In this document: one piece after another, positions 5,063 through 51,185 of the stretch
Layout of the letters: each line of letters begins with the position of its first letter
Position numbering within the stretch: position 1 is the first letter of the stretch
From: Luteitalea sp. TBR-22
Lineage (GTDB): Bacteria > Acidobacteriota > Vicinamibacteria > Vicinamibacterales > Vicinamibacteraceae
Reading direction: 5' to 3'
Length of the DNA stretch: 64,000 bases
Assembly (NCBI RefSeq): GCF_016865485.1
Contig: NZ_AP024452.1
Coordinates: 6,098,501-6,162,500, forward strand
Notes under the pieces: model-generated
What the model was told of the DNA's origin: nothing
Databases searched by the model: none
What the model saw: only the letters and a program-made list of their open reading frames with translations
Translations under genes and position numbers: made by a program

Positions 5063-5075
5063 CGGGTGCGGCCCC

Positions 5076-6455: not shown

Positions 6456-6479
6456 GGCAATGGCGACCGGCGGGCCCGG

Positions 6480-7796: not shown

Positions 7797-7868
7797 ACGT
7801 GATGGCGCGGCGCGAGAAATCGCACCAACGGGCGCATGCTAGCACGGAGCCTGCCCAGGGACATGACC

Positions 7869-9413: not shown

Positions 9414-9415
9414 CC

Positions 9416-10645
9416 ATGCACGATCGCCGCATCTTCGTGAAGCGTGGGGCGGTGGCCCTGCTCGCCCTCGGATTCGCACCGGAGTTCCTCGCGCAGGCGG
9501 CGGCTGCGGCGACGCGCCGCCGCAAGGTGCTCGTGGTGGTGTTCCAGCGCGGCGCGGTCGACGGCCTGTCGATGGTCGTGCCGCACGGCGACGCGGCGTA
9601 CTACGCCGCACGCCCGACGATCGCCGTCCCCCGTCCGGGCCGCGACGCGGGCGCGCTCGACCTCGACGGCCATTTCGGCCTGCATCCGGGGCTCGCTCAG
9701 CTGCACGCCCTCTACCGGAACGGCTCGCTCGCCGTCGTCCACGCCTGCGGGTCGCCCGACCCGACGCGATCGCACTTCGACGCGCAGGACTACATGGAGA
9801 GCGGCACGCCCGGCGTCAAGCGCACGCCGGACGGCTGGTTGAACCGGCTCATCGCCCAGCGGCACGACGCGGAGCACGTCGGGGCGATGCGGGCGGTGGC
9901 CCTGTCGTCACGACTGCCCCGCATCCTGCAAGGCGCGGCGCCGACGCTCGCGATGACCAGCGTCGAGCGGATGCGGATCGCCGGCGGTGGCGCCACGGGC
10001 GACGCGTTCGAGGCGCAGTACGCCGCGGCGGCCGATCGCGTGCTGCGCGACACCGGCCGCGAGACCTTCGACGCCATGCGCACGCTGCGCGGCGTCGAGT
10101 CGCGAGGGCCGGCCACGGCCGCTGGCGCGGCATACCCGCGCTCGGCCTTCGGCGACGCGCTGCGGCAGGTGGCGCGCCTCATCAAGGCCGACGTCGGCCT
10201 CGAAGTGGCCTTCGCGGAGGCGGGCGGCTGGGACACGCACGTCAACCAGGGCGGTTCGACCGGCCAGCTCGCGACGCGTCTCGGCGATCTCGGACAGGCG
10301 ATCGGCGCCTTCGTGGCCGATCTGGGCGCCGGCATGCAGGACGTCGTGGTGGTCACGATGTCGGAGTTCGGGCGGACGGTGGCCGAGAACGGGACGCGCG
10401 GCACCGACCACGGCCACGGCAACGCGATGCTGGTGCTCGGCGGGCCCGTGCGCGGCGGCCGCGTGTACGGTCGCTGGCCCGGCCTCGACGTCGCGTCGCG
10501 GGCCGAGGGCCGCGACGTGGCGGTGACGACGGACTTCAGGGACGTGCTGGCCGACGTGATCGCCACGCACCTGGGCGTGGCCGACCTGGGGCCGGTCTTC
10601 CCCGGCCACGCGTGGACACCGGGGCGGCGGCTCGGGCTGGTGTAG
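9416..10645 (+). CDS. DUF1501 family protein (sulfatase-like fold), exported
   Basis: This 409-residue protein begins M-H-D-R-R-I-F-V-K-R-G-A with a hydrophobic stretch, a Tat-like signal. DUF1501 motifs are clear: V-V-F-Q-R-G-A-V-D-G-L, H-F-D-A-Q-D-Y-M-E-S-G, W-D-T-H, and near the C-terminus S-E-F-G-R-T-V with G-T-D-H-G-H-G. The fold is related to alkaline phosphatases and sulfatases and the Asp/His clusters suggest metal binding, but no reaction is established. It forms a tight pair with DUF1800 (2-base gap). Confidence 0.92.
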   Translation: MHDRRIFVKRGAVALLALGFAPEFLAQAAAAATRRRKVLVVVFQRGAVDGLSMVVPHGDAAYYAARPTIAVPRPGRDAGALDLDGHFGLHPGLAQLHALYRNGSLAVVHACGSPDPTRSHFDAQDYMESGTPGVKRTPDGWLNRLIAQRHDAEHVGAMRAVALSSRLPRILQGAAPTLAMTSVERMRIAGGGATGDAFEAQYAAAADRVLRDTGRETFDAMRTLRGVESRGPATAAGAAYPRSAFGDALRQVARLIKADVGLEVAFAEAGGWDTHVNQGGSTGQLATRLGDLGQAIGAFVADLGAGMQDVVVVTMSEFGRTVAENGTRGTDHGHGNAMLVLGGPVRGGRVYGRWPGLDVASRAEGRDVAVTTDFRDVLADVIATHLGVADLGPVFPGHAWTPGRRLGLV

Positions 10646-36612: not shown

Positions 36613-37737
36613 ATGAACCGACGCCAACTGCTCCAGTCGCTCGCCGTGGCCCCAGCAGCCGCCGCGCTCGCCCGTCCCTCCTTCGCCCAGGCGCCCGCCG
36701 GCTCCGCGGCCGACCACGTCATCGCGATCTCGCTCGACGGCGTGCGCACGCAGGAGATGTTCGGCGGGCTCGACAAGGACATCCTGCAGGCCGTGCTCGG
36801 GCCGAAGAAGAAGGCCGAGGAGCACCCGCTCTACAAGGCCTACTGGCGCGACACGCGCGAGGCGCGCCGCGAGGCGGTGATGCCGTTCCTGTGGGGCACG
36901 TTCCTGAAGGACCACGCGTCGATCGTCGGCGACCGCTGGGCCGGCAGCGTGATGACGCTCGGCAACACGATGCGCTTCAGCTACCCGGGCTACGCCGAGC
37001 TGATGACCGGCGTGCCGCACGACGATGTGATCGACAGCAACGACGGCAGGTACTACCCGTTCGAGACGGTGCTGCAGTTCCTGCGCCGCGAGTTCGCGCT
37101 GCCGCAGGAAGGCGTCGCCTGCTTCGGGTCGTGGGACGTCTTCAAGTACATCCCGAACTCGAAGGCCGGCGACGTGTTCACCAATGCCGGCTACGAGGAC
37201 TACCCGTCCACCGACCCGCGCATCGCGGCGCTCAACGCCGCGCAGCACATGACCGTGCCGGCGTGGGACACCGCCCGCTACGACCACTACACCTGGCAGT
37301 TCGCGCTTCATCACCTGCAGCAGCACAAGCCGAAAGCGATGTGGATCGGCCTGGACGAGACCGACGACTGGTCGCACAACAAGTCGTACGTGCGCGTGAT
37401 CGAGTACCTGCACCGGTTCGACGGCTGGCTGAAGGACCTGTGGACCCTGCTGCAGGCCACGCCCGGGTTCGCGGGGCGGACGGCGCTGATGATCGTGACC
37501 GACCACGGGCGCGGCAACGGCGCGGCCGACTGGAGCAGCCACGGCAAGGACACCGAGGGCGCCCAGTACGTGTGGGCGATCGTGTCGGCGCCGCACTGGC
37601 CGGCGCGCGGGCTGTGGAAGGCCGGGCACGCACCGGCGTCGCAGAGCCAGGTGGCGGCCACCCTCGCCTCGCTGGTGGGCAAGGACTGGAAGGCGGCGTC
37701 GCCGAAGGCCGGCGCGCCGCTCGCGCCGCCGAAGTGA
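36613..37737 (+). CDS. Tat-exported alkaline phosphatase/phosphodiesterase-superfamily protein
   Basis: This 374-residue protein begins M-N-R-R-Q-L-L-Q-S-L, a Tat-type signal. The alkaline phosphatase superfamily core is suggested by V-I-A-I-S-L-D-G-V-R, S-Y-P-G-Y-A-E-L-M-T-G (with the position of the catalytic Thr/Ser), W-I-G-L-D-E-T-D-D-W and L-M-I-V-T-D-H-G-R-G. These supply the Asp/His metal ligands seen in phosphodiesterases, phosphatases and sulfatases of this fold. The substrate is unknown. No start signal is visible since tandem repeats run right up to ATG 36613. Confidence 0.8.
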   Translation: MNRRQLLQSLAVAPAAAALARPSFAQAPAGSAADHVIAISLDGVRTQEMFGGLDKDILQAVLGPKKKAEEHPLYKAYWRDTREARREAVMPFLWGTFLKDHASIVGDRWAGSVMTLGNTMRFSYPGYAELMTGVPHDDVIDSNDGRYYPFETVLQFLRREFALPQEGVACFGSWDVFKYIPNSKAGDVFTNAGYEDYPSTDPRIAALNAAQHMTVPAWDTARYDHYTWQFALHHLQQHKPKAMWIGLDETDDWSHNKSYVRVIEYLHRFDGWLKDLWTLLQATPGFAGRTALMIVTDHGRGNGAADWSSHGKDTEGAQYVWAIVSAPHWPARGLWKAGHAPASQSQVAATLASLVGKDWKAASPKAGAPLAPPK

Positions 37738-37790
37738 TCGGATTCTCCGAGGTCCGCGCCGGGCAGCAGTGCCTGCTTCGCGCCTACAAG

Positions 37791-37859
37791 GTAGGGCGCG
37801 ATGTCCCCATCGCGCCGCTCTCCGCCCTCGACGGCCGGGTGGGGACACCCGGCCCTACC
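37791..37859. repeat. REP doublet (GTAG ... CTACC, two 9-bp hairpins)
   Basis: GTAG, hairpin GGCGCGATG/CATCGCGCC with TCCC loop, a spacer of about 16 bp, hairpin GGCCGGGTG/CACCCGGCC with GGGA loop, then CTACC. It ends 3 bases before the next start codon. Confidence 0.9.
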
Positions 37860-37862
37860 TCG

Positions 37863-39257
37863 ATGCGGCCCGAATCCGACCCGCTTGCGGACGTACGTGC
37901 GCTCGCGCGGCCGTTGTTCGCGGGCGCGGAGTCGGCCCAGGGCGATGCGGCGCGCACCCGGGCGTTGATGGACGCGGGTTGCCCGCGCATCGTCGACGCG
38001 GTGGTCGAGGCCGACGGGCTGCGCGTGCGGGTGGACGTGCTCGAGCGCACCGCGCGCGGGCGCTGGATCGCGGTGCTGATCCGCAACGGCGTGCGCGTGT
38101 CGTGGAGCCTGGCCGACCGGGCGGCGTTCACGCTGCACGTGCTGCGCGCCGCCGGCCATCACGTGGCTGCGGTGCACGCGATGCTGCTCGACGAGACCTA
38201 CGAGCGCCCCGACGCCGGCCCCGTGGACCCGCACCGCCTGTTCGTGCGCCGCAGCGTCTCGTTCGCGGCGGGTCGGCGTCGGCTCCTGCGGATCGCGGCA
38301 TCGGTTGCCGCCACGCGCGCCGCGCTGGCCTCTCCCGACCGCCCCGCGATCGCGCCGGGCGCGCACTGTCGCGACAGCCGCGACGGCTGTCCGTTCCTCG
38401 ACGACTGCACCGCGCACCTGCCGGCCGACTGGACCGGCTGGTTCCCGCGCAAGGACAAGCCGCCGATCCGCGAGTGGCTCGCGCAGGGCTTCGTGCGCAT
38501 GGCCGCCGTGCCGGTCGAGGGGCGGCAGTTGCCGCGTGGCGCCGAGCACGCCAGGCTGGCGAGCCGCGCCGGCGGGCAGTACGTGGCGCCAACGCTCGCC
38601 GCGGCGCTCGCGCCGGCCGGTCCCCCGGCCTACTACCTCGACTTCGAGTGCGTGTCGCCGGCCGTGCCCCTCTACGCCGGCACGCGGCCGTACGCGGTGG
38701 TGCCCTTCCTGTGGTCCGTGCACCATGACGATGCGGCGGGGAACCTCACGCACGTGGACGACCTCGCCCCGCCCTCGACGGACCCGCCGCTGCGCCGCAT
38801 GGCCGAGGGGCTCATCGCCGCCCTCGGCCCATCGTCGGGCGAGCCGATCGTCGTCTACAGCAGCTACGAGTGGGAGCGGCTGCGCGACCTGGCGCAGGCG
38901 CTGCCCGATCTCGCCGAGCCGTTGCAGGCGATCCAGGCGCGGCTGGTGGATCTGCTCGAGGTGGTGCGCGAGCACGTGTACGACCTGCGGTTCCGGGGCT
39001 CGTTCTCGATCAAGGCGGTGGCGCCGGCGCTGGCGCCCGAGGTGACCTACGACGGCCTCGGCATCCGCGACGGCCTGGCGGCGGCCCATGCCTACGAGGC
39101 GGTCCTGCGCGGGTTGGACCGGGTCCATCCCGGAGGTGTAGCCCCCGGCCCTGACCGACGGGCCCAGGTGCTCGCGGACCTGCGCGCCTACTGCGCCCGC
39201 GACACCCTCGCGATGGTCGCCCTCCACCGCGCGCTGCTCCGTCTGCGCCACGCGTAG
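37863..39257 (+). CDS. DUF2779 protein, copy 1 (RNase H-like exonuclease fold; degenerate RecB-like half)
   Basis: This 464-residue protein has a DUF2779 C-terminal domain: A-Y-Y-L-D-F-E-C-V near residue 258, V-V-P-F-L-W-S-V-H-H, V-V-Y-S-S-Y-E-W-E, and Y-C-A-R-D-T-L-A-M-V. Together these resemble the acidic motifs of DnaQ-like (DEDD) 3'-5' exonucleases. The middle has a Cys cluster (H-C-R-D-S-R-D-G-C-P-F-L-D-D-C), as in Fe-S-containing RecB/Cas4 nucleases, but the E-V-K of the nuclease core is missing (W-I-A-V-L-I-R-N-G). It lacks the first 50 residues of copy 2, including the first Cys. A degenerate REP (39138-39164) seems to add about 9 residues. Confidence 0.82.
   Translation: MRPESDPLADVRALARPLFAGAESAQGDAARTRALMDAGCPRIVDAVVEADGLRVRVDVLERTARGRWIAVLIRNGVRVSWSLADRAAFTLHVLRAAGHHVAAVHAMLLDETYERPDAGPVDPHRLFVRRSVSFAAGRRRLLRIAASVAATRAALASPDRPAIAPGAHCRDSRDGCPFLDDCTAHLPADWTGWFPRKDKPPIREWLAQGFVRMAAVPVEGRQLPRGAEHARLASRAGGQYVAPTLAAALAPAGPPAYYLDFECVSPAVPLYAGTRPYAVVPFLWSVHHDDAAGNLTHVDDLAPPSTDPPLRRMAEGLIAALGPSSGEPIVVYSSYEWERLRDLAQALPDLAEPLQAIQARLVDLLEVVREHVYDLRFRGSFSIKAVAPALAPEVTYDGLGIRDGLAAAHAYEAVLRGLDRVHPGGVAPGPDRRAQVLADLRAYCARDTLAMVALHRALLRLRHA
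39138..39164. repeat. Possible degenerate REP inside the DUF2779 gene
   Basis: GTAGCC followed by a short GGCCC/GGGCC stem. It codes for a stretch absent from the paralogue at 39608, so it looks like an in-frame insertion that has decayed. Confidence 0.4.
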
Positions 39258-39302
39258 GCGCCGCCCTCGGGCGACGCACCGCCCGCTCGGACGCCGTTGC
39301 TC

Positions 39303-39545
39303 GGGCACGGTGCCCCGGAAGGGTCGGGCGCGGTGCCCCGGAAGGGTCGGGCGCGGTGCCCCGGAAGGGTCGGGCGCGGCGTCCCCGAAGGGTAGGGCGC
39401 GGTGTCCCGGAGGGGTAGGGCGCGGTGTCCCACCGCGCCGTTGGTCCCCGTTCCCGCCACTGCCCGCTGCGCGGTTCCCGGTGCCCGGTGCCCACTGCCC
39501 GCGCGCGCATTCCGGTGCCCGGATCCCGGTGCCCGGTGCCCGCTT
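39303..39545. repeat. 23-bp tandem repeats, a REP hairpin and CCCGGTGC repeats
   Basis: About five copies of a 23-bp unit (GTGCCCCGGAAGGGTCGGG plus GCG, with GTAG variants later) span 39308-39430. The last merges into a GTAG-hairpin (stem 39419-39439, GGCGCGGTG/CACCGCGCC). Then come CCCGGTGC-type units (39476-39545). This fills the 350-base gap between the two DUF2779 genes; no gene is seen. Confidence 0.85.
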
Positions 39546-39607
39546 CCCCTATTGACGCCCCTGCGGCGCAGGCGCACAGTCAGGATGACCTCACAGGAGT
39601 CGACGTT

Positions 39608-41122
39608 GTGCTGCCCGACGATGTGCTGGATTGGTGGGAGTATCACGAAGGCCGGCGATGCGTGCTGGCGGCGTGGAAGCACCACCGGCAGCGCGCCGAG
39701 GGCGAGCGCACCTCGTTCGACGGCTACGACCAGCGCGAGCGGGTGCGCGGCCTGGCGCAGCTGCGGTGGCCGGGCGGGCAGGACACCTGGCAGGCCGGGC
39801 CGCTCGAGGCGACGATCGAGCAGCGCACGCAGCAGCTGATCGCGCAGGGCGTGCCGGCGATCTTCCGGGCGGGATTCACGGCGGGCGGGTCGTCGGTGAG
39901 CATCGACGTGCTCGAGCGGCGACCCGACGGCAGCTGGACGGCGGTACTGCTGGCGACGCGGCTGCACCTCGACGACTTCCTCATCGAGCAGGCGGCGCTG
40001 ACGCTGCACGTGCTGCGGGCGGCCAGCGTCGCGGTGGCGGCGATCCACCTGCTGCACGTGGACGTGCACTACGCGCGGGTGCCCGGGCCGATCGATCCGT
40101 TCCTGTTCTTCGGTCGCCGGTCGCTGACGATCCGGGCGGCGCGGGCGCTGCCGCGGGTGGTGGCGCGGCTCGAGCAGCTGCAGCAACTGGTGGCGGAGCG
40201 GCGGGCGCCGGTGGTGCCCAAGGGGACGCACTGTGCGTGCTGCGCGTTCACGGCGCAGTGCGTGGACTCGCTGCCGGCCGACTGGACGGGGCACTTCCCG
40301 CACGAGCCGGGGCCGTCGGTGGACGAGTGGATTGCCAACGGCTGGGACCGGATGGGCGACGTGCCCGACGCGGAGGGGCTCGGGCCGAAGCGGCTGCGGG
40401 CGCGGCAGGCGGCGTTGCAGGGGCACATGGCGGTGGATCCGGGGTTGCCGGAGGCGTTGAAGGCGTTCGGGCCGCCGGCGTTCTACCTGGACTTCGAGAG
40501 CCTGGTATCGCTGATCCCGGTCTTCGAGGGGACGCGGCCGGCGCAGCACATCCCGTTCCTGTGGTCGCTGCACCACGTGGACACCGAGGGGCGGCTGACG
40601 CACATCGACGAGATCGTGCCGCCGGGCGAGGATCCGCGGCGTCGGTTTGCCGAGAGCCTTGTGGAGGCGGTGGGGTCGTACTGGGAGCCGATCATCGTCT
40701 ACAGCGACTACGAGTCGTGGCGGCTGCAGGAGCTGGCGGAGCTGTTCCCGGATCTGGCGCCGGCGTTACAGCGGATCCGGGGGCGGCTGGTGGACCTGCT
40801 GGAGCTGGTGCGGGACCACGTGTACGACCTGAACTTCCTCGGCAACTACTCGCTGAAGGCGATCGGTCCGGTGCTGGCGCCGGGGCTGACGTACAAGGGG
40901 CTGAGCATCAAGGACGGGCTGACCGCCTCGCGTGCGTACGCGAGCCTGATCGACGCGCAGGTGGGCGAGGACGACGTGGCGATTGCGTTGCACGACCTGC
41001 GTCGGTACTGCGAGCGCGACACGCTGGCGCTGGTGGACGTACACCGCACGCTGATGAACCTCGCCAACGGCGTCACGACGACGCCGGAGGGCGCGGTCAG
41101 CTGGCCGAGCGTGCAGGGGTGA
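39608..41122 (+). CDS. DUF2779 protein, copy 2 (full length; RecB-like domain lacks E-V-K)
   Basis: This 504-residue protein follows the whole DUF2779 pattern. An N-terminal Cys (R-R-C-V-L-A-A-W), I-E-Q-R-T-Q-Q-L-I-A-Q-G, S-I-D-V-L-E-R-R and a late Cys cluster (H-C-A-C-C-A-F-T-A-Q-C) match RecB/Cas4-type nucleases with an Fe-S cluster. The E-V-K expected after the beta strand reads V-L-L-A-T. The C-terminal half has F-Y-L-D-F-E-S, I-P-F-L-W-S-L-H-H, V-Y-S-D-Y-E-S-W and Y-C-E-R-D-T-L-A-L-V, as in DEDD exonucleases. GTG 39608 has ACAGGAG 8 bases upstream. The last 331 bases are duplicated at 44364. Confidence 0.87.
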   Translation: MLPDDVLDWWEYHEGRRCVLAAWKHHRQRAEGERTSFDGYDQRERVRGLAQLRWPGGQDTWQAGPLEATIEQRTQQLIAQGVPAIFRAGFTAGGSSVSIDVLERRPDGSWTAVLLATRLHLDDFLIEQAALTLHVLRAASVAVAAIHLLHVDVHYARVPGPIDPFLFFGRRSLTIRAARALPRVVARLEQLQQLVAERRAPVVPKGTHCACCAFTAQCVDSLPADWTGHFPHEPGPSVDEWIANGWDRMGDVPDAEGLGPKRLRARQAALQGHMAVDPGLPEALKAFGPPAFYLDFESLVSLIPVFEGTRPAQHIPFLWSLHHVDTEGRLTHIDEIVPPGEDPRRRFAESLVEAVGSYWEPIIVYSDYESWRLQELAELFPDLAPALQRIRGRLVDLLELVRDHVYDLNFLGNYSLKAIGPVLAPGLTYKGLSIKDGLTASRAYASLIDAQVGEDDVAIALHDLRRYCERDTLALVDVHRTLMNLANGVTTTPEGAVSWPSVQG

Positions 41123-41434
41123 CCAACAGCGACGCCGACATCGACAATCCCTCAAGCCGACGAGCTTGTGTGGAGGCTGATCGATGCGCTTGGGTGACCA
41201 TGCGAATCTGCCCTCATCTCGTGCCGGATGGCAGCAGGACGGGGGCGGAGTCTTGGTCGGATCCGGGCCCTGCGGTCGAGGATTGTAGACGACTCGGGCC
41301 AGCGGGGCCGACACGAGAGGGGCCGGCAGTTCAGATGCCTTCCCTCTCATGAAGCGGCCGCGTGCAGCCAGAGCGGGCAGCGCGACGCGCTTGTAAGGCT
41401 GCCGGCAACGGACAGAAAGCTCGGGTTCCTGTCT
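41123..41434. other. Intergenic stretch before the GNAT-M20 gene
   Basis: No gene is supported here. An open frame to 41228 on the plus strand has no family resemblance or coding-like composition. This is the left flank of the segment inserted between the two DUF2779 tails. Confidence 0.5.
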
Positions 41435-44260
41435 GTGCAGCAGCTACCCGATGGGCTAGGATCGCCGGCACATCAGGAGGGGCGTATCAGCGACGCATCT
41501 GTCACTGCGCGGGAGGGACTGCAGCGCATCTGGGTCGACATCCTGATGGCGCTGCTCGGCCTCATTCAGGGCCTCATCTTCAACGATCTCGCAAACACGC
41601 TCTCGGACCACCTGCGTGTCTGGACGCCCTGGCGATGGCTCGTCGTCGCTCACCTGGCCCTGTGCTTCGCCATCCTGCTCAGGGTGATCCAGACCTACAT
41701 CACTGCTGCGCTGTACTACCGGAAGCAACTGAATCTCTCCGAGATCGTCATCCTCTCGGTGATAGGCGTCCTGCAGCATCTCCTGGTGCAGAGCATTCGC
41801 AGCCCGTCTGTCGAGGCGGACGTGCTCGATGTGTCGTTCTTCTACAAGTCGCTGTTGCTCGTGGTGTTCCTTGGCTGCGTGGCCTACCTCCTCACGCTGC
41901 GGGGCCTGCTCGTAGCGTATCGAGCCCTACCCGTGCCGCAGTCGCCACCGGAGCTGAAACGCAGCGTCGTCCTGCAGGTCATCAATCTGACCGGCATGGC
42001 GTGCATAGGCGTGCTCGCACTCCTTGCCCTCTCAGGAACGGTGCCCCCGATCGTCTCGGCCTCGTTGTGCAGCGCGATCCTGGTGGCAAACACCGCGTAC
42101 TCAAGCCGTCAGAGTTTCGTGCAGCACACGGTTGCTACGGCCACGGCACGAACCGACGTCCTGGCAGTAGCACGGTCCCTGAGCCGCGAGTTCGATTACG
42201 TCTTCGGACGTTTCCTGCCAGGTGACATCGAGCGCCGCGCCAGGATCATCGCGCTGGCCATCTGCTTCTTCGAGGACGGACACCTGCTCGGGCGCGCTCG
42301 GCTCGTGACCCTGACTGACGACGACGAGGCATTCGCGTTCGTGGCGCCCCCTGATCAGGGGCGGCTGACGGGCGCGCGGTCCGTGGCGGCATTCGCAATC
42401 GCCACGGCGTGCTGCGGCGTATCCAAGGTGCCCTCCACTCTGTGGCGCGCGTGGCGCAATCGCGCCCTCCTGTTCGCTGTGACTACGAGCGCGCCGGCGT
42501 GGAAGGTGCTGTACCTTGTCGTCCCGGACACGCGACGTCGGCAGGGCCTCGGCGTTGCGCTGCTGCGGCGCGTCGAGGCTCTTGCTGGACGGTCGGCGAC
42601 TCCCCGGATCGGGGCTGCCGTGAGGACCAGGAACGTCGCGGCCCGCAAGATGTTCCTGAGCCGAGGCTACCGCAAAGTCTCGAAGCATCGCGAGGTGATT
42701 CCGGGCGAGGAGCATCGGGGCGGTCTTGCCGTGTACCAGATGGCCGTGCCGAGCCAGTCCACTCCTGCTGCCACACAAGGGAGCTTCGCCGCCGTGCCGA
42801 GCGCAGGGAGGCGTGGGTGGCTGGCAGCCGTCGCGCTTGGCGTGGCGGTTCTGCTGGCTGGCGTCGTCCTCTCTGCGAGAGCGTTCAGGGTGGCCTCTCG
42901 ACAACCACCCGCATTGCCGACGGAGGGTCTGCTTCCAGCGCCGCCGCGCGCGGACCTCGCCGCAACGCTGGCCGCATCGATCCGGTTCCGCACCATCTCG
43001 CACGGCGCGGCCCCGGATGCGCTGACAGATCAGGCGCTGGTCGAGTTCGTCAGCTTCCTGACCAGGACCTATCCCGCCATGAGGTTCGAGAGGGTGGGAC
43101 CACGGGCGCACCTTGTGACGATTCCCGGGCAGGACCACAGCCTCCCCGGGGCCTTGGTCTACGCACATCTCGATGTCGTGCCTGCGGATACCAAGGGCTG
43201 GAAGCAGGATCCCTTCGGCGGCGTCGTCAGCGACGGGTACGTACATGGCCGTGGGGCCCTCGATGACAAGTTCTCGGTCATCGCCATCCTTGCCGCCACG
43301 CAGGAGCTGCTCGGCGCAGGCTGGGCGCCGACGCGCCCGATGTACATCGCCCTCGGCCATGACGAGGAGCTCGATGGGACGGGCGCGCAGGCAGTCGCGG
43401 CGCACCTCCGGGAACGAGGCCTGCGGGTCGGTTCGGTGCTCGACGAAGGAAGTGCCGTGGTCGAAGGTGTCCTTCCGGGCCTCGACGGCCCAGTTGCCGC
43501 CGTAGCGATCGCGGAGAAGGGCTACCTCGACGTCACCTTGTGCGCCGTCGGCACACCGGGGCACTCGAGTTCTCCACCCGTGTCGACCGCCATAGGTGCG
43601 ATCAGCACCGCAGTGCACCGCCTGGAGCAGAATCCCCCTCCGACGGCGCTGAATGCGCTGATGGCGCAGACCTTGACTTACGCCGCGGCCGAGATGTCGT
43701 ACCCCTGGCGGCTCGTGGTCTCGAACTTGTGGCTGACGACGCCCCTGATCGAGGCCAGCATGCGCGGGGCGCCTCTCAGCCGGGCGCTGCTCGGGTCGAG
43801 CCAGTCAGCCACACTGGTGGCTGGGGGGACGAAGGCAAACGTCCTGCCAGAGCGTGCCTGTGCAACGCTGAACTACCGGCTGCTTCCCGGATCCTCCCCG
43901 GAAGACATGCTGCGCCGGGTGCGCTCGGTCGTGGGCGACTCCCGCGTGTCGGTCACGCACGGGCCCCCGGGGCCGGCTCCAACCGTGTCTGACCTGGACT
44001 CTCCAGCAGGCATCCGTCTGGGCCAGGTGATCCGGCGGCACTTCCCGCGGGCAGTGGTTGTGCCCGTCTTGAGCCCTGGCACCACCGACTCTCGCCACTT
44101 CGGACAGGTCGCCGATCAGATCTTTCGCTTCTCACCTCTGGAGCTGAGCGATGAGGAGCTCGCGTCCCTTCACGGTACGAACGAGCGCATCCGCGTACTA
44201 GCGCTCGAGAAGGCCTATGCCTTCTATCACTCCTACCTCCAGCACGCCTCGCGCAAGTAG
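41435..44260 (+). CDS. Membrane GNAT acyltransferase fused to M20 peptidase (CPS1/PM20D1-like)
   Basis: This roughly 941-residue protein has three parts. Residues about 33-223 hold about six membrane helices. Residues about 228-435 are a GNAT acetyltransferase-like domain with the acyl-CoA motif L-V-V-P-D-T-R-R-R-Q-G-L-G and R-N-V-A-A-R-K-M-F-L-S-R-G-Y. One more helix (about 462-485) leads to an M20 peptidase (about 500-941) with intact metal ligands: A-H-L-D-V-V-P-A, G-R-G-A-L-D-D-K, H-D-E-E-L-D-G and T-D-S-R-H-F-G, closest in pattern to CPS1/PM20D1 proteins that cleave or form N-acyl amino acids. With an even helix count the GNAT domain would face the cytoplasm and the peptidase the outside. 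The start is uncertain: GTG 41435 and ATG 41546 are the ordinary choices, but TAGGAT (41457) and AGGAGG (41475-41480) point to ATC 41486. Confidence 0.82.
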   Translation: MQQLPDGLGSPAHQEGRISDASVTAREGLQRIWVDILMALLGLIQGLIFNDLANTLSDHLRVWTPWRWLVVAHLALCFAILLRVIQTYITAALYYRKQLNLSEIVILSVIGVLQHLLVQSIRSPSVEADVLDVSFFYKSLLLVVFLGCVAYLLTLRGLLVAYRALPVPQSPPELKRSVVLQVINLTGMACIGVLALLALSGTVPPIVSASLCSAILVANTAYSSRQSFVQHTVATATARTDVLAVARSLSREFDYVFGRFLPGDIERRARIIALAICFFEDGHLLGRARLVTLTDDDEAFAFVAPPDQGRLTGARSVAAFAIATACCGVSKVPSTLWRAWRNRALLFAVTTSAPAWKVLYLVVPDTRRRQGLGVALLRRVEALAGRSATPRIGAAVRTRNVAARKMFLSRGYRKVSKHREVIPGEEHRGGLAVYQMAVPSQSTPAATQGSFAAVPSAGRRGWLAAVALGVAVLLAGVVLSARAFRVASRQPPALPTEGLLPAPPRADLAATLAASIRFRTISHGAAPDALTDQALVEFVSFLTRTYPAMRFERVGPRAHLVTIPGQDHSLPGALVYAHLDVVPADTKGWKQDPFGGVVSDGYVHGRGALDDKFSVIAILAATQELLGAGWAPTRPMYIALGHDEELDGTGAQAVAAHLRERGLRVGSVLDEGSAVVEGVLPGLDGPVAAVAIAEKGYLDVTLCAVGTPGHSSSPPVSTAIGAISTAVHRLEQNPPPTALNALMAQTLTYAAAEMSYPWRLVVSNLWLTTPLIEASMRGAPLSRALLGSSQSATLVAGGTKANVLPERACATLNYRLLPGSSPEDMLRRVRSVVGDSRVSVTHGPPGPAPTVSDLDSPAGIRLGQVIRRHFPRAVVVPVLSPGTTDSRHFGQVADQIFRFSPLELSDEELASLHGTNERIRVLALEKAYAFYHSYLQHASRK
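41457..41480 (+). promoter_or_regulatory. Possible -10 box and strong Shine-Dalgarno of the GNAT-M20 gene
   Basis: TAGGAT (41457-41462) then AGGAGG (41475-41480), 5 bases before an in-frame ATC at 41486. No ATG, GTG or TTG lies at the right distance, so the true start may be non-canonical, or a base may differ from the true sequence. Confidence 0.4.
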
Positions 44261-44363
44261 CGCCCAGGCCCGACGCGTACGCGGTGGGGCGCACCTGGGC
44301 CGCCTCCCGCGGCAAGAACGGAGGCGAGTGCCAACGACTCGCGGGTTTGGCCAGGCAGTGTTC

Positions 44364-44692
44364 GGACCTGCTGGAGCTGGTGCGCGACCACGTGTACGAC
44401 CCTGAACTTCCTGGGCAACTACTCGCTGAAGGCGATTGGCCCGGTGCTGGCGCCGGGGCTGACGTACAAGGGGCTGAGCATCAAGGACGGGCTGACGGCC
44501 TCGCGCGCGTACGCGAGCCTGATCGACGCGCAGGTGGGCGAGGACGACGTGGCGATTGCGTTGCACGACCTGCGCCAGTACTGCGAGCGCGACACGCTGG
44601 CGCTGGTGGACGTACACCGCACGCTGATGAACCTCGCCAACGGCGTGACGACGACGGAGGGCGCGGTCAGCTGGCCGAGCGTGCAGGGGTGA
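44364..44692 (+). pseudogene. Truncated, frameshifted copy of the DUF2779 C-terminus
   Basis: This stretch repeats 40792-41122 with nine substitutions, one inserted C (near 44402) and one 3-base deletion. The inserted base breaks the frame early. Eight of the nine substitutions are at third codon positions, so the copy was under coding constraint before it was broken. It carries the D-L-L-E-L-V-R-D-H and Y-C-E-R-D-T-L-A-L-V regions but not the D-F-E motif. Its last 26 bases overlap the 3' end of the sigma-54 regulator on the other strand, just as the intact tail would if the inserted segment were removed. Confidence 0.9.
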
Positions 44693-47384
44693 GGTCGTCG
44701 TCTTCCTCGTCGGCGACGGTGTCGTCGGCGAGGCCGAGCCGCTTCCGTTTCAGGTACAGGCCCTTGCGGGTGATGCCGAGGCGGCGCGCGCATTCGGACT
44801 GGTTCTGGCGCGACACGTCCATGGCGCGAAGGATGGCCGCGCGTTCGAGGTCGTCGTACAAGCCTTGCAGATCGCGGTCGAGGGCGAGCGTGACGGTGGA
44901 ACCGTCGGATGGCCGTGGGGCGGGCGCCTCGACGAGGTTGCGGATCCCCGGCGCGAGGTGCTCGAGGTCGACGAGTTCGTCCGCGTCACTGAGTGCCACG
45001 ATGCGCTTCAGCTCGTTGGTCAACTGGCGCACGTTCCCTGGCCAGTCGTAGGCAGACAGTCGCTCGAGGGCACGAGGCGTGAGCTGCGGAATGAGTTTGC
45101 CCGCCTGCTTGGCGTGCGTCGTCAGGAAATGGTTGACGAGCGTCGGGATCTCCTCGCGCCGCTCGCGCAGCGGCGGCACGGTGAGAGAGACGACATTGAG
45201 GCGGTAAAAGAGGTCCTCGCGGAAGCGCCCCTCGCGCACGAGGGACTCGAGGCGCGCGTTCGTCGCTGCGACGATTCGGACATCGACGCGCTGGGGTCGC
45301 TCTCCGAGCGGCTGGATCTCGCCGCTTTCCAGGAAGCGCAGCAGCTTCGGCTGCAGGTCGAGGCTCAACTCGCCGATCTCGTCGATGAAGAGCGTCCCGC
45401 CTTCCGCCTCGCGGATCATGCCCTTGGCGTCGTTGACCGCGCCGGTGAACGCGCCACGCTTGTAGCCGAACAAGTGTCCCTCGAGCATCTCACGAGGGAC
45501 TGCGGCGACGTTGAGTGCGATGAATGGCTTCGCTGATCGCGGCGAGCACGCGTGCAGCTCAGTCGCTACAATTTCCTTACCTGTTCCGGTTTCGCCGGTG
45601 ATCAGTACTGGGATGTCGCTCGCGGCCGCGCGCGTAATTGTCTTGAGGAGGCGCTTCATGCCAGAGGAGATGTAGAGGCCTGCCTTCCCCTCAGGAGCGA
45701 TATCAAGATCCCACGAAAGGAGCTTCTGCTTCAGCTCAGACTGCGCGCGAACGCCGTCGACCGCCCTTCGAGTGATACTGAAGACATGGAAGAGCAACTC
45801 CTTCTTCTCCGCAAGTTCAGGAACCTCGGCTCCGAGGTAGATCGGGGACCGACCTACCGTTCCGACGTAGAGCGCTGAAGTCCCGACCTTGTCAGCGGGG
45901 CTGGGATCAGCCTGGAGAGTGGACCTGATGCCAAGTCGCTTGAGCATGCGGCGCAGCTCGATGCTCGCGAGATGAGGATGCGGTAGCAGACCGCATACAA
46001 ACGCGAGATCCTCAGCGACTCTCAGGATCGGCCGGCGGTGGCGAGGCGCATGACTGTCACTGGACGACTTGAGCTCACCAGCCAATCTTGAGGTCTGTCG
46101 ACGAAGAAAGCGCTCGCCCGACACGGCAAAAACACGATCCGCCCTTAAGAACTCGGCCCTAGCAACGAGTGCATCCTGTCGCAGGGCGGCCCTCACTGCA
46201 CGAACTCTGGCAAGCAGACCCAGTGTTTCCGCGCTGGGATAATGAACGCGAGCAAGCACGTCAACCACATCGTGAGCAGTGGATTCGTCGTTGGGGTTCA
46301 GGCGGACCTTTGCCTCAGCTCGCAGCAGTACCAGCTTTGCCCATCCGAGTAGGTCGCCCCTGCTATCGGCCACGTCAATCGCATCCGACAGAACGCGACA
46401 GGACTGGTCCCATTCGCCGTGAAGCTGCGCAACTCTTGCTCTTACGGGCGCTGAGTCCACTAGTAGGAGCGTCGCTCGGTTCAAGACTGCGATTAGCTCC
46501 TCTATCTGCACTACGAGAAGGCGAGCCTCCGCCAGTTCCCCTCGCTCCGCCGCAATGTTTGCCAGTGTGTCAAGAAGTGCTCCTCTGGCCAATGAGAGCG
46601 GTGGCACCTCCTCGAGGGCGGCGACCGCCTCCCCCCGTGCGCGCGAGAAGCTTCCACGTCGAAACTCGAGGAATGCGAGATTCGCTTGAGCCGATGCCCT
46701 CAAGGCTCGCAGGCCGTTTGCCTCTGCAGTCTTGCGGGAAGCACGCGCCCAGTGAACGGCCTCTTGACTGCGCGCCAAGAGGTGCTCCGCACCTGATAAC
46801 GCGAGCTCTGTGAATGCTTGAATTGCAGCATTAGGCTCTGGTCGAAGGAGCGCAAGTGCGGACTCGAGCTCACCTACAGCGAGGCTCGCTAAGTTGCGCT
46901 GAGCATGCGCCTGTCCCACTCGTGCATGCAGTGCCGCCAAGAGCTGTGCGTCGCCAGAACGTAGCACTGCCGCCTTGGCGCTTTGCAGCGCTTGCTGGCT
47001 CTCTGCAAGCCCGCGGTGGTTTGTAAGGAGTGTAAAACGCGACAACGAGGCCAGGGCCACCTGCTGGTGCTCGCCGGCGGCCTCACCCTCGACGAGAGCC
47101 TTATTTAAGACCTCTAGAGCCTCAGCTGTTCGCCCTGAAGCACCGAGCAATTCGCCTTCGACTCGTGCAGCAAACACTGCGGCAGCAGGAGTGAGCGCAC
47201 AACCTTTGAGGCTCCCGAGAAGCGCCAGTGACTCTTGCAAAGCGCCCGCCTGGCGCCTGATGTCGGCCTCAAGCACTGCTCTTGTGGCCGGGGCGAGTCT
47301 TGCACCCCTGAGAGCATGCTCTGAGGCAATCAGGTCGCCGGATCGTACCGCCCGTCTAAGAGACGCAGGTAAATCAAGTGGCAT
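44667..47384 (-). CDS. Sigma-54-dependent Fis-family transcriptional activator with TPR-like sensor region
   Basis: This 905-residue protein has a long helical N-terminal region (about 1-430) that looks like TPR repeats, an uncharacterised segment (about 440-560), the sigma-54 interaction AAA+ domain (Walker A G-E-T-G-T-G-K near 598; G-A-F-T-G-A near 643; L-F-I-D-E-I-G-E-L) and a Fis-type helix-turn-helix (Q-S-E-C-A-R-R-L-G-I-T-R-K-G-L-Y) near 870. It should activate RpoN-dependent promoters in response to an unknown signal bound by the N-terminus. The 5' half looks less GC-rich than its neighbours, hinting at transfer. No clear -24/-12 promoter was found in the window. Confidence 0.92.
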   Translation of the reverse strand: MPLDLPASLRRAVRSGDLIASEHALRGARLAPATRAVLEADIRRQAGALQESLALLGSLKGCALTPAAAVFAARVEGELLGASGRTAEALEVLNKALVEGEAAGEHQQVALASLSRFTLLTNHRGLAESQQALQSAKAAVLRSGDAQLLAALHARVGQAHAQRNLASLAVGELESALALLRPEPNAAIQAFTELALSGAEHLLARSQEAVHWARASRKTAEANGLRALRASAQANLAFLEFRRGSFSRARGEAVAALEEVPPLSLARGALLDTLANIAAERGELAEARLLVVQIEELIAVLNRATLLLVDSAPVRARVAQLHGEWDQSCRVLSDAIDVADSRGDLLGWAKLVLLRAEAKVRLNPNDESTAHDVVDVLARVHYPSAETLGLLARVRAVRAALRQDALVARAEFLRADRVFAVSGERFLRRQTSRLAGELKSSSDSHAPRHRRPILRVAEDLAFVCGLLPHPHLASIELRRMLKRLGIRSTLQADPSPADKVGTSALYVGTVGRSPIYLGAEVPELAEKKELLFHVFSITRRAVDGVRAQSELKQKLLSWDLDIAPEGKAGLYISSGMKRLLKTITRAAASDIPVLITGETGTGKEIVATELHACSPRSAKPFIALNVAAVPREMLEGHLFGYKRGAFTGAVNDAKGMIREAEGGTLFIDEIGELSLDLQPKLLRFLESGEIQPLGERPQRVDVRIVAATNARLESLVREGRFREDLFYRLNVVSLTVPPLRERREEIPTLVNHFLTTHAKQAGKLIPQLTPRALERLSAYDWPGNVRQLTNELKRIVALSDADELVDLEHLAPGIRNLVEAPAPRPSDGSTVTLALDRDLQGLYDDLERAAILRAMDVSRQNQSECARRLGITRKGLYLKRKRLGLADDTVADEEDDDLTPARSAS

Positions 47385-47436
47385 TGGCTGGTTCTGCGCG
47401 GAGTTTAGCGCACATCCCAGCCCACGAGTAGTTAGT

Positions 47437-47614
47437 CACCCCACACGAGCGTGTCACCCCAGACCAACGTGTCACCCCACACGAGGGTGTCACCCCAGAC
47501 CAACGTGTCGCCCCACACGAGCGTGTCACCCCAGACCAACGTGTCGCCCCACACGAGCGTGTCCCCACACGAGCGTGTCACCCCAGACCAACGTGTCGCC
47601 CCACACGAGCGTGT
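47437..47614 (-). repeat. 18-bp tandem repeat coding D-T-L-V-W-G
   Basis: Ten units (18 bp each, alternating two variants in a 36-bp higher-order pattern) encode D-T-L-V-W-G on the complement. Unit 8 (47563-47578) is only 16 bp, which shifts the frame within the array. Confidence 0.95.
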
Positions 47615-49049
47615 CACCATCGACCTTGGCAGTAAATGCAATGCCGCTGCGCGTCGCGGTTTCGCCGGCGATGGTGGTGGGTGGCAGATCCTGCAGCCGC
47701 CGACGCGCCGCCGCCACCGCCGCCGCCACGTCGATCTCGCCCGCACCCGCCGCCGCAACACCAGCCTCCGCGACCCGCTGCGACGTCACCTGCAGCACCA
47801 CCTTCACCTGCGCCGGCGTCAGCTTCGGGTTCGCCTCCAGCACCAGCGCCGCCGCGCCGCTCACCATCGCCGCCGCCATGCTCGTCCCCGACAGCCGCAC
47901 GTACGTCGCCGCGCCCTGCCCCACCACCACCGCGCCCGCCTTGCCCACCAGCGCGCTGCCCACGCTCCCCGCCGACACGATCCGACGCCCCGGCGCCGAC
48001 ACGTCAGGCTTCATGAACCCGTCGATCGCCGTGAGGCCGCGCGAGCTCCAGTCCGCAATCCGGTCGTCGCTGCGCTGCGGCGTCCCCTGCGTGTCCACCG
48101 CACCCACCGTGATCGCCGACGGCGCGTTGCCCGGCGACGTGATGCCGTCACGCACCCGCGTCCCGTCCGGCAGCGTCCCGAGGTTGCCCGCCGACGTCAC
48201 GACGACGATGCCCGCCCGGCTCGCCGCCTCCACCGCCTGCACCAGCGGGTCGTCCACCCAGCTCTCGAGCACCGGCTTGCCCAGCGACAGGTTGATCACC
48301 CGGATCCCGTACGCCGCACGGTTGGCCACCGCCCACTCGATTGCCGCAATCACGTCGCTCGTCGTCCCGCGCCCCTGCGCGTCGAGCACCCGCAGGCTCA
48401 CCAGGTGCGCGCCCGGCGCCACCCCCGCGAACCGCCCCTGCCCCGTCGTCACGTCGCCGGCCGCAATCCCCGCCACGTGGGTGCCGTGCCCGTAGGGGTC
48501 GGCGCCCCGACGGCCGCCCGCCACGAAATCGACGCTCGCCACCACCCGGCGCCGCAGCGCCTCGTGGCTGGCCGCGATGCCCGAGTCGATCACCGCGATG
48601 CCGATGCCCTTGCCGTTCACCCCCGGCAACCCGAGCACCCCCTGCCACGCCTGGTCGGCCCCGAGCGCCACCACCTCGGTCGCCATGTGTGCCGCCACCG
48701 GCGCGTCGTCGGCCACCACCGGCACCGCCGGGTCGGCCGCCAGCGCCGAGAGCGCCGCCGCGTCCTTCACCCGCACCACCGCGCCGGTCGCGAGCGTCTT
48801 CTCCACCACGAGCCCGTGCCGCGCCGCCAGGTCGCGGATCTGCTCCGCCGTGCCCGACACGATCACGCCCCGCGACTCGCCACGCCCGACCGCCTCGGCA
48901 AGGCCGCGCGAGAGGCGCGCCTTGTGCCCGTCGGCCGCCGCCGGCGCCGACAGCGCCAGCAGGACGAACGCGATCGAGACCCACACAACCGTGCGCAGCG
49001 GCGAACGGCGGACAGACGAGGGGCGGGCGGACAGCGAGAGGAACGGCAT
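47526..49049 (-). CDS. Secreted subtilisin-like serine protease (S8) with C-terminal repeats, frameshifted in the array
   Basis: This 507-residue protein has a signal peptide (V-W-V-S-I-A-F-V-L-L-A-L, ending A-A-A-D), an inhibitor-like propeptide region, and the S8 triad: Asp in A-V-I-D-S-G-I, His in G-H-G-T-H-V-A-G-I, Ser in L-S-G-T-S-M-A-A-A. The oxyanion Asn is in S-A-G-N. The C-terminus enters the D-T-L-V-W-G repeats. After three repeats a 16-bp unit shifts the frame and the protein ends after a short tail (H-A-R-V-G-R-H-V-G-L-G). Without the shift all ten repeats would be read, ending near 47432. ATG 49049 has AGGAG 8 bases upstream. Confidence 0.92.
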   Translation of the reverse strand: MPFLSLSARPSSVRRSPLRTVVWVSIAFVLLALSAPAAADGHKARLSRGLAEAVGRGESRGVIVSGTAEQIRDLAARHGLVVEKTLATGAVVRVKDAAALSALAADPAVPVVADDAPVAAHMATEVVALGADQAWQGVLGLPGVNGKGIGIAVIDSGIAASHEALRRRVVASVDFVAGGRRGADPYGHGTHVAGIAAGDVTTGQGRFAGVAPGAHLVSLRVLDAQGRGTTSDVIAAIEWAVANRAAYGIRVINLSLGKPVLESWVDDPLVQAVEAASRAGIVVVTSAGNLGTLPDGTRVRDGITSPGNAPSAITVGAVDTQGTPQRSDDRIADWSSRGLTAIDGFMKPDVSAPGRRIVSAGSVGSALVGKAGAVVVGQGAATYVRLSGTSMAAAMVSGAAALVLEANPKLTPAQVKVVLQVTSQRVAEAGVAAAGAGEIDVAAAVAAARRRLQDLPPTTIAGETATRSGIAFTAKVDGDTLVWGDTLVWGDTLVWGHARVGRHVGLG

Positions 49050-49376
49050 CTTGCGTGCTCCTGGGACTTGGGGAGAGCGCCGCGGCAGCATCGCCACGGA
49101 CCGTCCGGACCACGCACGGTCCGGAGGCCACGATGAGCCGGGCACCCATTGCCAATACACGCAACGTGCCAGATCGCAAGAAGTGCAATAACGTTGGATG
49201 GGGCCCGTACCGAACAGGGGCTGCAGGCCCATCAGGTGCGTGCCGACACAGGATCAGGTGGCGCACGTACGGTTCCGTCCCGGCCCCGTGACCGCGCGCC
49301 GCCCCCGACCGCGCCGATCGCCGCGTCGCGATCGGCCAAGATCTTGGCCGGTGCGGCCAAGGAGTTGCCCTCGTCC
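49050..49376. promoter_or_regulatory. Divergent intergenic region with inverted repeats
   Basis: This 327-base region separates the subtilase and the ABC operon. It holds an inverted repeat GGACCGT/ACGGTCC (near 49098-49123), GCCGATCGC/GCGATCGGC (49313-49321 and 49328-49336, 6 bases apart) and a perfect 18-bp palindrome CGGCCAAGATCTTGGCCG (49333-49350), 26 bases before the first ABC gene. The last two overlap and are good operator candidates. No gene is supported in this gap. Confidence 0.5.
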
Positions 49377-51185
49377 ATGAAGCGCCTCGCCGGTCTCCTC
49401 CTCGTCCTCCTCATCGTCTGCGCCGGCCTGTGGCTGCTGCGCGACGGCACCCGTGGGGGTGGGAGCACCGGGACCCCCACAGAGTTTGTGGCCACCCTGC
49501 GGGCCGAGCCGCGCAGCCTCGTCCGCCTCGCCGCCAACGACCGCGCCACCCTGGTCGCCAACCAGCTGCTCCACGACGTGCTCGTGCGCGTCAACCACGT
49601 GACGCAGTCGCTCGAGCCGGCGCTCGCCGCCTCGTGGGTCACCCTCGACGAGGGCCGCCGCTTCCGCGTCACCCTCCGCCCCGAGGCCCGCTTCTCCGAC
49701 GGCACCCCGGTGACCGCCGACGACGTGGCGTTCTCGCTGGAGGTGGTCTTCGACCCGAAGCTCGGGAGCCCGCTGGCCGACACCTTCACCCTGCAGGGCC
49801 AGCCGCTCACCGCCCGCGTCGTCGACCCGCGCACCGTGGACCTCGCCTGGCCCGCCCCCTACGGCCCCGGAATGCGGCCGCTGCACGCGCTGCCGATCGT
49901 GCCCCGCGCCCGGTACGCCACCGCGCTGGCCAACGGCACCTTCGCCGACAAGTGGGCCCCCTCGGCCGACCCCGCCGGCATGGTCGGCGCCGGCCCGTTC
50001 GTGCTCGAGCGCCACGAGCCCGGCGTCGCGCTGCACCTGGCGCGCAACCCGCACTACTGGCGCACCGGCGACGATGGCGCGCCGCGCCCGCGGGTGGACC
50101 GGATCCGCCTCGACGTCGTGCCGTCGCAGGACGCCGAGATGCTGCGCCTGCGCAGCGGCCAGGCCGACGTGATCACCGCCGAACTGCGCCCCGACGACCT
50201 GCCCGAGGCCCGCGCCCTCGCCGCGCAGGGCCAGCTGCAGCTCTTCGACCTCGGCCCGTCGCTCGAGGCGGACATGCTGTGGTTCAACTTGCGGGGGCCG
50301 GGAATCGGGAATCGGGAATCGGGAATCGGGCAGGGCACGCCGAGCGCCGGGGAGGGCACGCCGGGCGCCGGGAGCCGCGCACAGGGCACCGGAACCCAGC
50401 CGGGGGGAGACGCGCCGCCTGAACGACGCGGGTGGTTGAAGAAGCGGGAACTGCGCGAGGCGATCTCGATGGCCGTCGATCGCACCGCCTTCATCAACGC
50501 GGTGTATCGCGGCGCCGGCGTGCAGGTGGCCAGCATGATCACGCCGGGCAACCACGCGTGGGCCGCCGCCGACATCGCGCCGCGCCCGTACTCGCCGACG
50601 ATGGCCGGCGAGCTGCTCGATCGGATCGGCGTGCGCGACCGCAACGGCGACGGCGTGCGTGAGGACGTGTTCGACGAGCCGGCGCGGTTCACGCTGCTCG
50701 TGCAGCAGGGCCACACCATCCGCCAGCGCGCCGCCGCGGTGCTGCAGGAGGCACTGGCGAAGATCGGCCTGCAGGTGGAGATCGTCAGCCTCGACCCGAA
50801 GGGCCTGCAGCAGCGGATGCTGGAAGGCCGCTACGAGGCGATGTACCACGCGCTGCCCGGCACCGACACCGACCCTTCGGGGCTGATGGAGTTCTGGCTG
50901 TCGTCGGGGCGCATGCACCTGTGGAACCCGGGGCAACCCGCGGCGCAGACCAAGTGGGAGGACGAGCTCGACATCCTCGTGACGCGCCAGCTCGCCACCA
51001 CCGACCAGGCCGAGCGCCAGCGCCTGATGGTGCAGGCCCAGAAGCTGCTCGACGCGGAGTTGCCGGTGGTCGTGTTCGCGGTGCCGCGGGTGACCATCGC
51101 CACCAGCGGCCGGCTGACGCACGTCGCGCCGGGGCTGCTCGCGCCGCAGGTGCTCTGGAACGCCGCCGAGATCGGCGTCCGCTGA
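49377..51185 (+). CDS. ABC transporter peptide-binding protein (SBP family 5) with repeat-derived insert
   Basis: This 602-residue protein has an N-terminal hydrophobic anchor (L-L-L-V-L-L-I-V-C-A-G-L) and the family 5 pattern for oligopeptide and nickel-binding proteins: L-E-P-A-L-A-A-S-W, A-R-F-S-D-G-T-P-V-T-A-D-D-V-A-F-S, and R-E-A-I-S-M-A-V-D-R. Between about residues 306 and 352 is a Gly/Arg/Ser-rich stretch encoded by tandem repeats of the intergenic type (50301-50400); it lies between two conserved blocks, in a likely surface loop. AAGGAG lies about 13 bases before ATG 49377. It heads a run with two permeases. Confidence 0.88.
   Translation: MKRLAGLLLVLLIVCAGLWLLRDGTRGGGSTGTPTEFVATLRAEPRSLVRLAANDRATLVANQLLHDVLVRVNHVTQSLEPALAASWVTLDEGRRFRVTLRPEARFSDGTPVTADDVAFSLEVVFDPKLGSPLADTFTLQGQPLTARVVDPRTVDLAWPAPYGPGMRPLHALPIVPRARYATALANGTFADKWAPSADPAGMVGAGPFVLERHEPGVALHLARNPHYWRTGDDGAPRPRVDRIRLDVVPSQDAEMLRLRSGQADVITAELRPDDLPEARALAAQGQLQLFDLGPSLEADMLWFNLRGPGIGNRESGIGQGTPSAGEGTPGAGSRAQGTGTQPGGDAPPERRGWLKKRELREAISMAVDRTAFINAVYRGAGVQVASMITPGNHAWAAADIAPRPYSPTMAGELLDRIGVRDRNGDGVREDVFDEPARFTLLVQQGHTIRQRAAAVLQEALAKIGLQVEIVSLDPKGLQQRMLEGRYEAMYHALPGTDTDPSGLMEFWLSSGRMHLWNPGQPAAQTKWEDELDILVTRQLATTDQAERQRLMVQAQKLLDAELPVVVFAVPRVTIATSGRLTHVAPGLLAPQVLWNAAEIGVR
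50301..50400. repeat. Tandem repeats within the ABC binding protein gene
   Basis: Four GGGAATC units followed by degenerate GGGCACGCCG- and GGGCACCGG-type units. They match the intergenic families at 36500 and 30871 and are read in frame. Confidence 0.85.

Follow-up and report, generated by a model that had tools for sequence, protein, structure and literature searches.

A putative two-enzyme membrane protein of Luteitalea sp. TBR-22, joining an orphan six-helix module to a GNAT domain and an M20 metallohydrolase

Luteitalea sp. TBR-22 is an acidobacterium isolated from duckweed, and its genome is reported as closed (PMC8852301). The genome forms a single contig of 6,468,984 bases, of which the stretch analysed here, hereafter the window, comprises the 64,000 nucleotides at positions 6098501-6162500. 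The window contains a gene for a protein of about 941 residues, in which a six-helix membrane module is followed by a GNAT domain, one more helix and a complete M20 metallohydrolase. Sequence comparison shows the combination to be genuine and rare: two known enzyme families in one chain with an orphan membrane module. The same domain order recurs in L009, a metagenome-assembled genome (MAG) of Acidobacteria, where the homologue occupies one frame of 954 residues (6335-9199) and is 50% identical to the window protein. The features of the gene, in window positions, are these:

41435..44260, + strand: whole fusion gene, about 941 residues with a GTG start assumed and a TAG stop; from the open frame and the L009 homologue
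41516..42139, + strand: six-helix membrane module, residues 28-235; from hydropathy and low-confidence AF2 helices; no known family
41519..41596, + strand: 26-residue run, residues 29-54, in the first helix, identical in the window protein and L009
42140..42745, + strand: GNAT region, residues 236-437, of which profiles recognise only the later half (about 350-415); from PF00583, GNATs in the PDB by sequence and, weakly, fold
42536..42553, + strand: acyl-CoA loop R-x-x-G-x-G, residues 368-373; R-x-x-G-x-A in L009
42818..42883, + strand: membrane helix before M20, residues 462-483; from hydropathy and loop charges
42935..44257, + strand: M20 metallohydrolase domain, residues 501-941; nearest to the PRK08262 models

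That the three modules form one real protein is shown by the homologue and by the pattern of substitution between the pair. Third codon positions differ most in every part (0.59 in the membrane module, 0.67 in GNAT, 0.70 in the linker and 0.60 in M20), as expected for selection on protein, and one fusion event would suffice for both genes. The contrary explanation, an artefact in which a faulty assembly or an overlooked stop codon runs two genes together, we rejected as highly improbable. It could draw on the direct repeats between which the gene sits, where assemblies can fail, but the gene as such offered nothing in its favour. These repeats are external to the coding sequence, TBR-22 has a genome described as closed (PMC8852301), and a separate MAG carries the same single-frame fusion. 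The frame is open from 41228 to 44260 on the + strand (1010 residues). Within it the GTG at 41435 is a likely and fair, yet uncertain, start. It is preferred because the L009 homologue begins with an ATG, preceded by AGAGGAG, at a nearly matching place; it is uncertain because AGGAGG directly precedes an in-frame ATC at 41486.

The original prediction of this architecture, made from the letters of the window, had listed about six membrane helices, a GNAT motif, another helix and an M20 domain with all its metal ligands, and hydropathy, Pfam and aligned residues bear out each of these. It had proposed a search for homologues with all three modules, and counted a missing GNAT domain or halves that are normally separate genes as refutations; PF00583 scored over its cut-off in both proteins, and L009 is the one such homologue found, its halves likewise not joined by a missed stop.

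For the M20 half, Peptidase_M20 (PF01546; 91.6 bits, E 8.4e-26) and M20_dimer (PF07687; 38.1 bits, E 1.6e-9) both score over cut-off in Pfam, and the catalytic and dimerisation domains of peptidase family M20 are thus present. H578, D610, E644, E645, D670 and H913, which we take to fill the metal-ligand and general-base roles, are identical in the window protein and L009, as are D580 and H710. Residues H578 to D670 align with aminoacylase-1, and H913 aligns, weakly, with DapE 4onw (i-Evalue 2.9 for that stretch). Among NCBIfam models the half is nearest to the PRK08262 M20 family peptidases (NF006111, NF006112 and NF006113), the match covering 532-1008 of the 1010-residue frame and including the helix before M20; aminoacylase, ArgE and DapE models also match, far below their cut-offs. 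The protein scores 342.4 bits against the curated cut-off of 503 for the equivalog NF006113, and L009 355.9, and both lie outside the equivalog on that measure. In a wider sense the M20 half belongs to the PRK08262 group, since it clusters with stand-alone members. A tree of 30 rows (33 proteins were collected, and the distant own-genome rows L001, L004 and L008 left out; the long-branch rows L002, L003 and L007 were kept and their place is unsure) makes the window protein and L009 sisters with support 100/99. It sets nine rows, the two fusions and seven stand-alone proteins, apart from other M20 proteins with support 100/100. Six of the stand-alone members have 481-503 residues and the seventh, L012, has 374 at a contig end; four of the seven were scanned against NCBIfam and PRK08262 was the best model in all four, with only L011 over a cut-off. 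PRK08262 presumably represents the CPS1/PM20D1 group. Beside one stand-alone relative, in a genome of the same order, lies a gene resembling subclass B3 metallo-beta-lactamases (L069, 7462-8436).

The GNAT region is recognised by Acetyltransf_1 (PF00583) at 22.7 bits in the window protein, against a cut-off of 20.7, and at 34.4 bits in L009, rising to 27.5 and 37.5 when the region is searched alone. The acyl-CoA-binding half, with the R/Q-x-x-G-x-G/A pattern of the GNAT superfamily, is present in both proteins; the stretch at residues 368-373 we take to be the GNAT acyl-CoA motif. This loop and N400, R404, F407, G411 and Y412 are kept in both. The profile covers the CoA-binding half alone and not the acceptor half, and the predicted model falls below pLDDT 50 at residues 224-365. 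By sequence profile the top match in the PDB is an N-alpha-acetyltransferase (5isv, E 3.5e-4), and the top NCBIfam model is RimI, at 27.5 and 29.9 bits, far below its cut-off of 86.4. RimI is a common default match for such proteins. It also headed a fold search with the poor model of the N-terminal part (mean pLDDT 48.2), at E 0.011; that search, to which we give little weight, returned 368 matches at E <=10 and none at 0.001, and 48 of the best 50 were acetyltransferases or named GNAT enzymes, the other two (3ld2) having no family name.

These matches bear on the acyl group that the domain might use. The OlsB-type N-acyltransferases of bacterial aminolipid synthesis bear PF13444 (PMC11631085). 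This family was not found in the fusion protein at E <=10, a search in which HMMER filters drop most weak matches, nor in the TBR-22 genome at 0.001, where the same search gave matches in two of 14 control genomes. Because the nearest GNATs are acetyltransferases and PF13444 is absent from these searches, a small acyl donor appears more likely than a fatty one. The same two observations tell against the suggestion, made in the original prediction, that the product may be a signal lipid, which we now consider improbable. In its favour is a presumed nearness of the M20 half to PM20D1. In vitro, PM20D1 both makes and cleaves lipids of this kind (PMC7145423), and some bacterial GNATs, only somewhat similar to OlsB-type enzymes, make N-acyl amino acids (PMC11631085).

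The membrane module stands apart from any family searched. Hydropathy gives five peaks ahead of GNAT, and one strong peak ahead of M20; the module is counted as six helices because the low-confidence models draw the fifth peak, of 46 residues, as two. The corresponding peak of L009 has only 35 residues, which leaves its sixth helix less clear. The module had no convincing match in Pfam or NCBIfam, none in PHROGs and none among PDB sequences to E 1. Weak candidates, all taken as chance, were OCIA (E 0.16) and FSAP_sig_propep (E 8.6) in Pfam for the window protein, and MscL models (E 0.015 and 0.071) in NCBIfam for L009.

Searches for homologues, whose genome sets may overlap, give the same picture of a rare N-terminal part. 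Fifty-nine of 60 relatives (own genome counted) match, and among the matches listed outside the gene itself none starts before residue 435. The membrane-plus-GNAT protein matches four of 162 genomes of the order, its own included; in the three others, and at a second place in its own genome, the match is restricted to residues 346-421. A membrane-plus-GNAT profile matched 134 of 396 genomes of the phylum (at most four candidates scored in each genome listed), and among the matches listed all those outside the own gene begin at column 272 at least, nearly all in the GNAT part. For this reason a membrane-only profile was used afterwards, and it matched two of the 396: the own genome and G448, where we take the match (58 columns, E 3.5e-4) as weak and due to chance. 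Around the genome of L009, one of 299 genomes of the class and one of 250 of the order match the module, each time that genome itself. Beyond Acidobacteriota the searches comprised genome contigs, plasmids, phages and viral contigs. Six exact peptide patterns were scanned against genome contigs, and one of 19 stretches was confirmed, namely L009. On plasmids 251 records match the whole protein, but no match extends across 80% of it, and the N-terminal part has no match; nor has it one in phages, and viral contigs gave no relative of the whole protein. As to the literature, the remark in the original prediction that no family with this order is described holds for the titles and abstracts of open-licence papers listed by word search, and neither GNAT nor fusion occurs as a term in the main text of an aminoacylase review (PMC11511702).

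Conservation between the two proteins is spread unevenly. Identity is 53% in the membrane module, 45% in the first part of the GNAT region, 36% in the linker with its helix and 55% in M20. The longest identical run of the pair is the 26 residues of the first helix, a length not matched in 5000 shuffles of the identity vector, where the maximum was 21. The second longest, of 17 residues, falls in helix 2; those listed for M20 have 8-10. The best 40-residue segment scores 0.78 both in the membrane module (from residue 21) and in M20 (from 881). The long runs of helices 1 and 2, which contain polar residues, suggest that the module probably does more than anchor the protein.

Our own reading, offered tentatively, is of an inner-membrane protein with two enzymes, masking a compound by acylation inside and unmasking it by deacylation in the periplasm. 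In a single fusion, an M20 amidohydrolase of the signal-anchored, PRK08262-like kind would have gained the membrane module and the GNAT domain. The cytoplasmic GNAT would acylate an amine, that of an amino acid, a peptide or a similar compound, with a small group that is most likely acetyl; the masked compound would then cross the membrane, perhaps through the six-helix module, and the periplasmic M20 domain would take the acyl group off. The outcome would be export or detoxification. The stricter form of this proposal, a single-chain machine in which acylation in the cytoplasm, passage through the protein's own new module and deacylation in the periplasm make up a group-translocating export driven by acyl-CoA, seems rather unlikely.

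The proposal depends on the GNAT domain lying inside and M20 outside, as the original prediction had supposed. Loop charges, counted with helix limits set by hand from hydropathy and the models, lean the same way: in the window protein the supposed inside segments hold 2-4 lysines and arginines each (net 0 to +2) and the supposed outside segments 0-3 (net -2 to +1). This part of the prediction is thus weakly supported for the window protein, and less so for L009. An arrangement with the N-terminus and GNAT in and M20 out is favoured, not settled.

Several observations weigh against this arrangement or against the masking proposal built on it. Weaker hydrophobic peaks lie within the GNAT region itself (residues 311-329 and 344-363; 321-341 in L009), and in L009 two out of five segments supposed to lie inside carry a net negative charge. 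Both findings weaken the topology; a crossing by one of the peaks would alter it, and the peaks could mean a further contact with the membrane. The predicted structures, with a mean pLDDT of 48.2 for the N-terminal part and 34.7 for the whole protein, are too poor for use or for judging pockets. The PF00583 match spans profile position 55-57 to 116 of 116, leaving the first half of GNAT unrecognised, and the membrane module fits no transporter family. With 37% identity in its recognised half, GNAT is less conserved than either of the other modules. No biosynthetic cluster appeared among nine window frames and nine neighbour frames of L009. Finally, no GNAT was seen beside the seven stand-alone M20 relatives, although a weak GNAT could escape the scans: four of the 251 plasmid records were read over 6 kb each side by annotation, with many hypothetical proteins, and three relatives in the order over five frames by NCBIfam at E 1e-8, two of these frames having no match at all. 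Pairing of GNAT with M20 does not appear to be general for this reason.

The last of these points and the freedom of the GNAT, apparently the freest of the modules, are also what a looser fusion would predict, in which a periplasmic M20 salvages peptides or N-acyl amino acids, the membrane part serves only to anchor it, and the amine modified by the GNAT in the cytoplasm is an unrelated one. This we regard as just as likely as masking and unmasking. It accommodates the stand-alone PRK08262-like proteins readily; it accounts less well for a domain order kept at 50% identity, and a longest identical run in the first membrane helix is odd for a plain anchor. That run, with its companion in helix 2 and the weakly conserved GNAT, would suit instead a sensor, in which M20 is controlled through binding of a ligand or acyl-CoA by either the membrane module or the GNAT, and the GNAT need not be catalytic. 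Retention in both proteins of the CoA loop and of the five residues named above speaks against this reading, and the sensor is a lesser possibility than either the loose fusion or the masking proposal.

The gene looks acquired by horizontal transfer, a view suggested by flanking direct repeats, a lower GC3 and four other members of the genus without a match to the N-terminal part. Its GC3 is 0.79 against 0.92 in nearby frames such as 39425-41122 and 49149-51185. The next gene downstream, a sigma-54 regulator at 44667-47384, is also in G+C-poor DNA, and the foreign stretch may be longer for that reason. The flanking features are:

39425..41122, + strand: DUF2779 gene, directly upstream of the fusion gene; its final 331 nt recur downstream of the fusion
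40792..41122, + strand: direct repeat copy 1, within the open DUF2779 frame and ending at its TGA
44364..44692, + strand: direct repeat copy 2, a remnant that, relative to copy 1, has an additional base and a gap of 3 nt

The copies differ by nine mismatches and four gap positions in 332 columns, and the same TGA ends both. We infer that incoming DNA brought the end of the neighbouring gene with it. A search with ARAGORN from 39000 to 48000 gave no tRNA. Other features of this DNA include a further DUF2779 gene (36891-39257) beside that at 39425-41122; the latter matches it over residues 65-550 at 44%, and one TAG falls within the match. Short G+C-rich tandem repeats (39301-39548; 23-nt units, then others) surround the start of the 39425-41122 frame, whose residues 11-48 match a few other places in the genome, and its true start may lie further in. 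An 18-nt tandem repeat lies between the sigma-54 and subtilase genes (47435-47500) and may continue past 47500, the end of the stretch searched.

The surroundings of the two fusion genes have no Pfam family in common across the nine frames scanned at each. In L009 a gene with three Ribonuc_L-PSP (RidA) stretches (4724-6325), with a signal-peptide-like segment near 5255 by eye, ends 9 nt before the fusion gene; relatives of its protein turned up in all 20 genomes searched, and hence it is no marker. Directly downstream lies a TIR-domain gene (9293-9778). In a PADLOC search for a possible role in defence, the fusion protein had no match at 0.01. Matches among the neighbours were PD-T4-2_B for the RidA-type protein (3.1e-28), SAVED_TIR (2.8e-8) and several ThsB models for the TIR protein, RtcR models for the sigma-54 protein (1.7e-102) and, weakly, Cas4 for the DUF2779 protein (0.0066). 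Those of the RidA and sigma-54 proteins we read as shared common domains.

Opposite chemistries, the addition and the removal of an acyl group, at opposite sides of a single membrane would amount to a futile cycle if nothing passed from one to the other. If something does pass, the protein would be a very simple exporter working by masking and unmasking, and a membrane module without known kin would gain a function. Even if the enzyme halves are unrelated, the orphan module merits description as a family of its own.

Among known systems, PRK08262 proteins resemble the M20 half in sequence, but the fusion falls below their cut-off (342.4 bits against 503), and the relatives in the clade stand alone (six of 481-503 residues) whereas the fusion has about 941. 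PM20D1 and yeast CPS1 place an M20 enzyme outside the cytoplasm, as predicted here; unlike the fusion protein they presumably have neither a GNAT nor a six-helix module. RimI and the N-alpha-acetyltransferases share the CoA-binding half, but the fusion GNAT scores far under the RimI cut-off, has an unrecognised first half and sits in a membrane protein. MprF offers a functional analogy, since it unites a membrane module with a transferase of GNAT fold, but it is not known to have an M20 domain; none of its models is among the Pfam matches of the fusion protein. OlsB-type enzymes and FeeM transfer acyl groups to the amine of an amino acid (PMC11631085); PF13444, the domain of the OlsB type, has no match in the fusion protein. 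The mask-and-unmask enzymes of puromycin and precolibactin are separate proteins in biosynthetic clusters. With puromycin acetyltransferase and N-acetylpuromycin hydrolase an acylated inactive form comes first and a deacylated form later, and precolibactin deacylation follows the same course (PMC5874909). Although the frames scanned here hold no such cluster, the order of events that we tentatively propose for the fusion protein, masking and then unmasking, would be the same.
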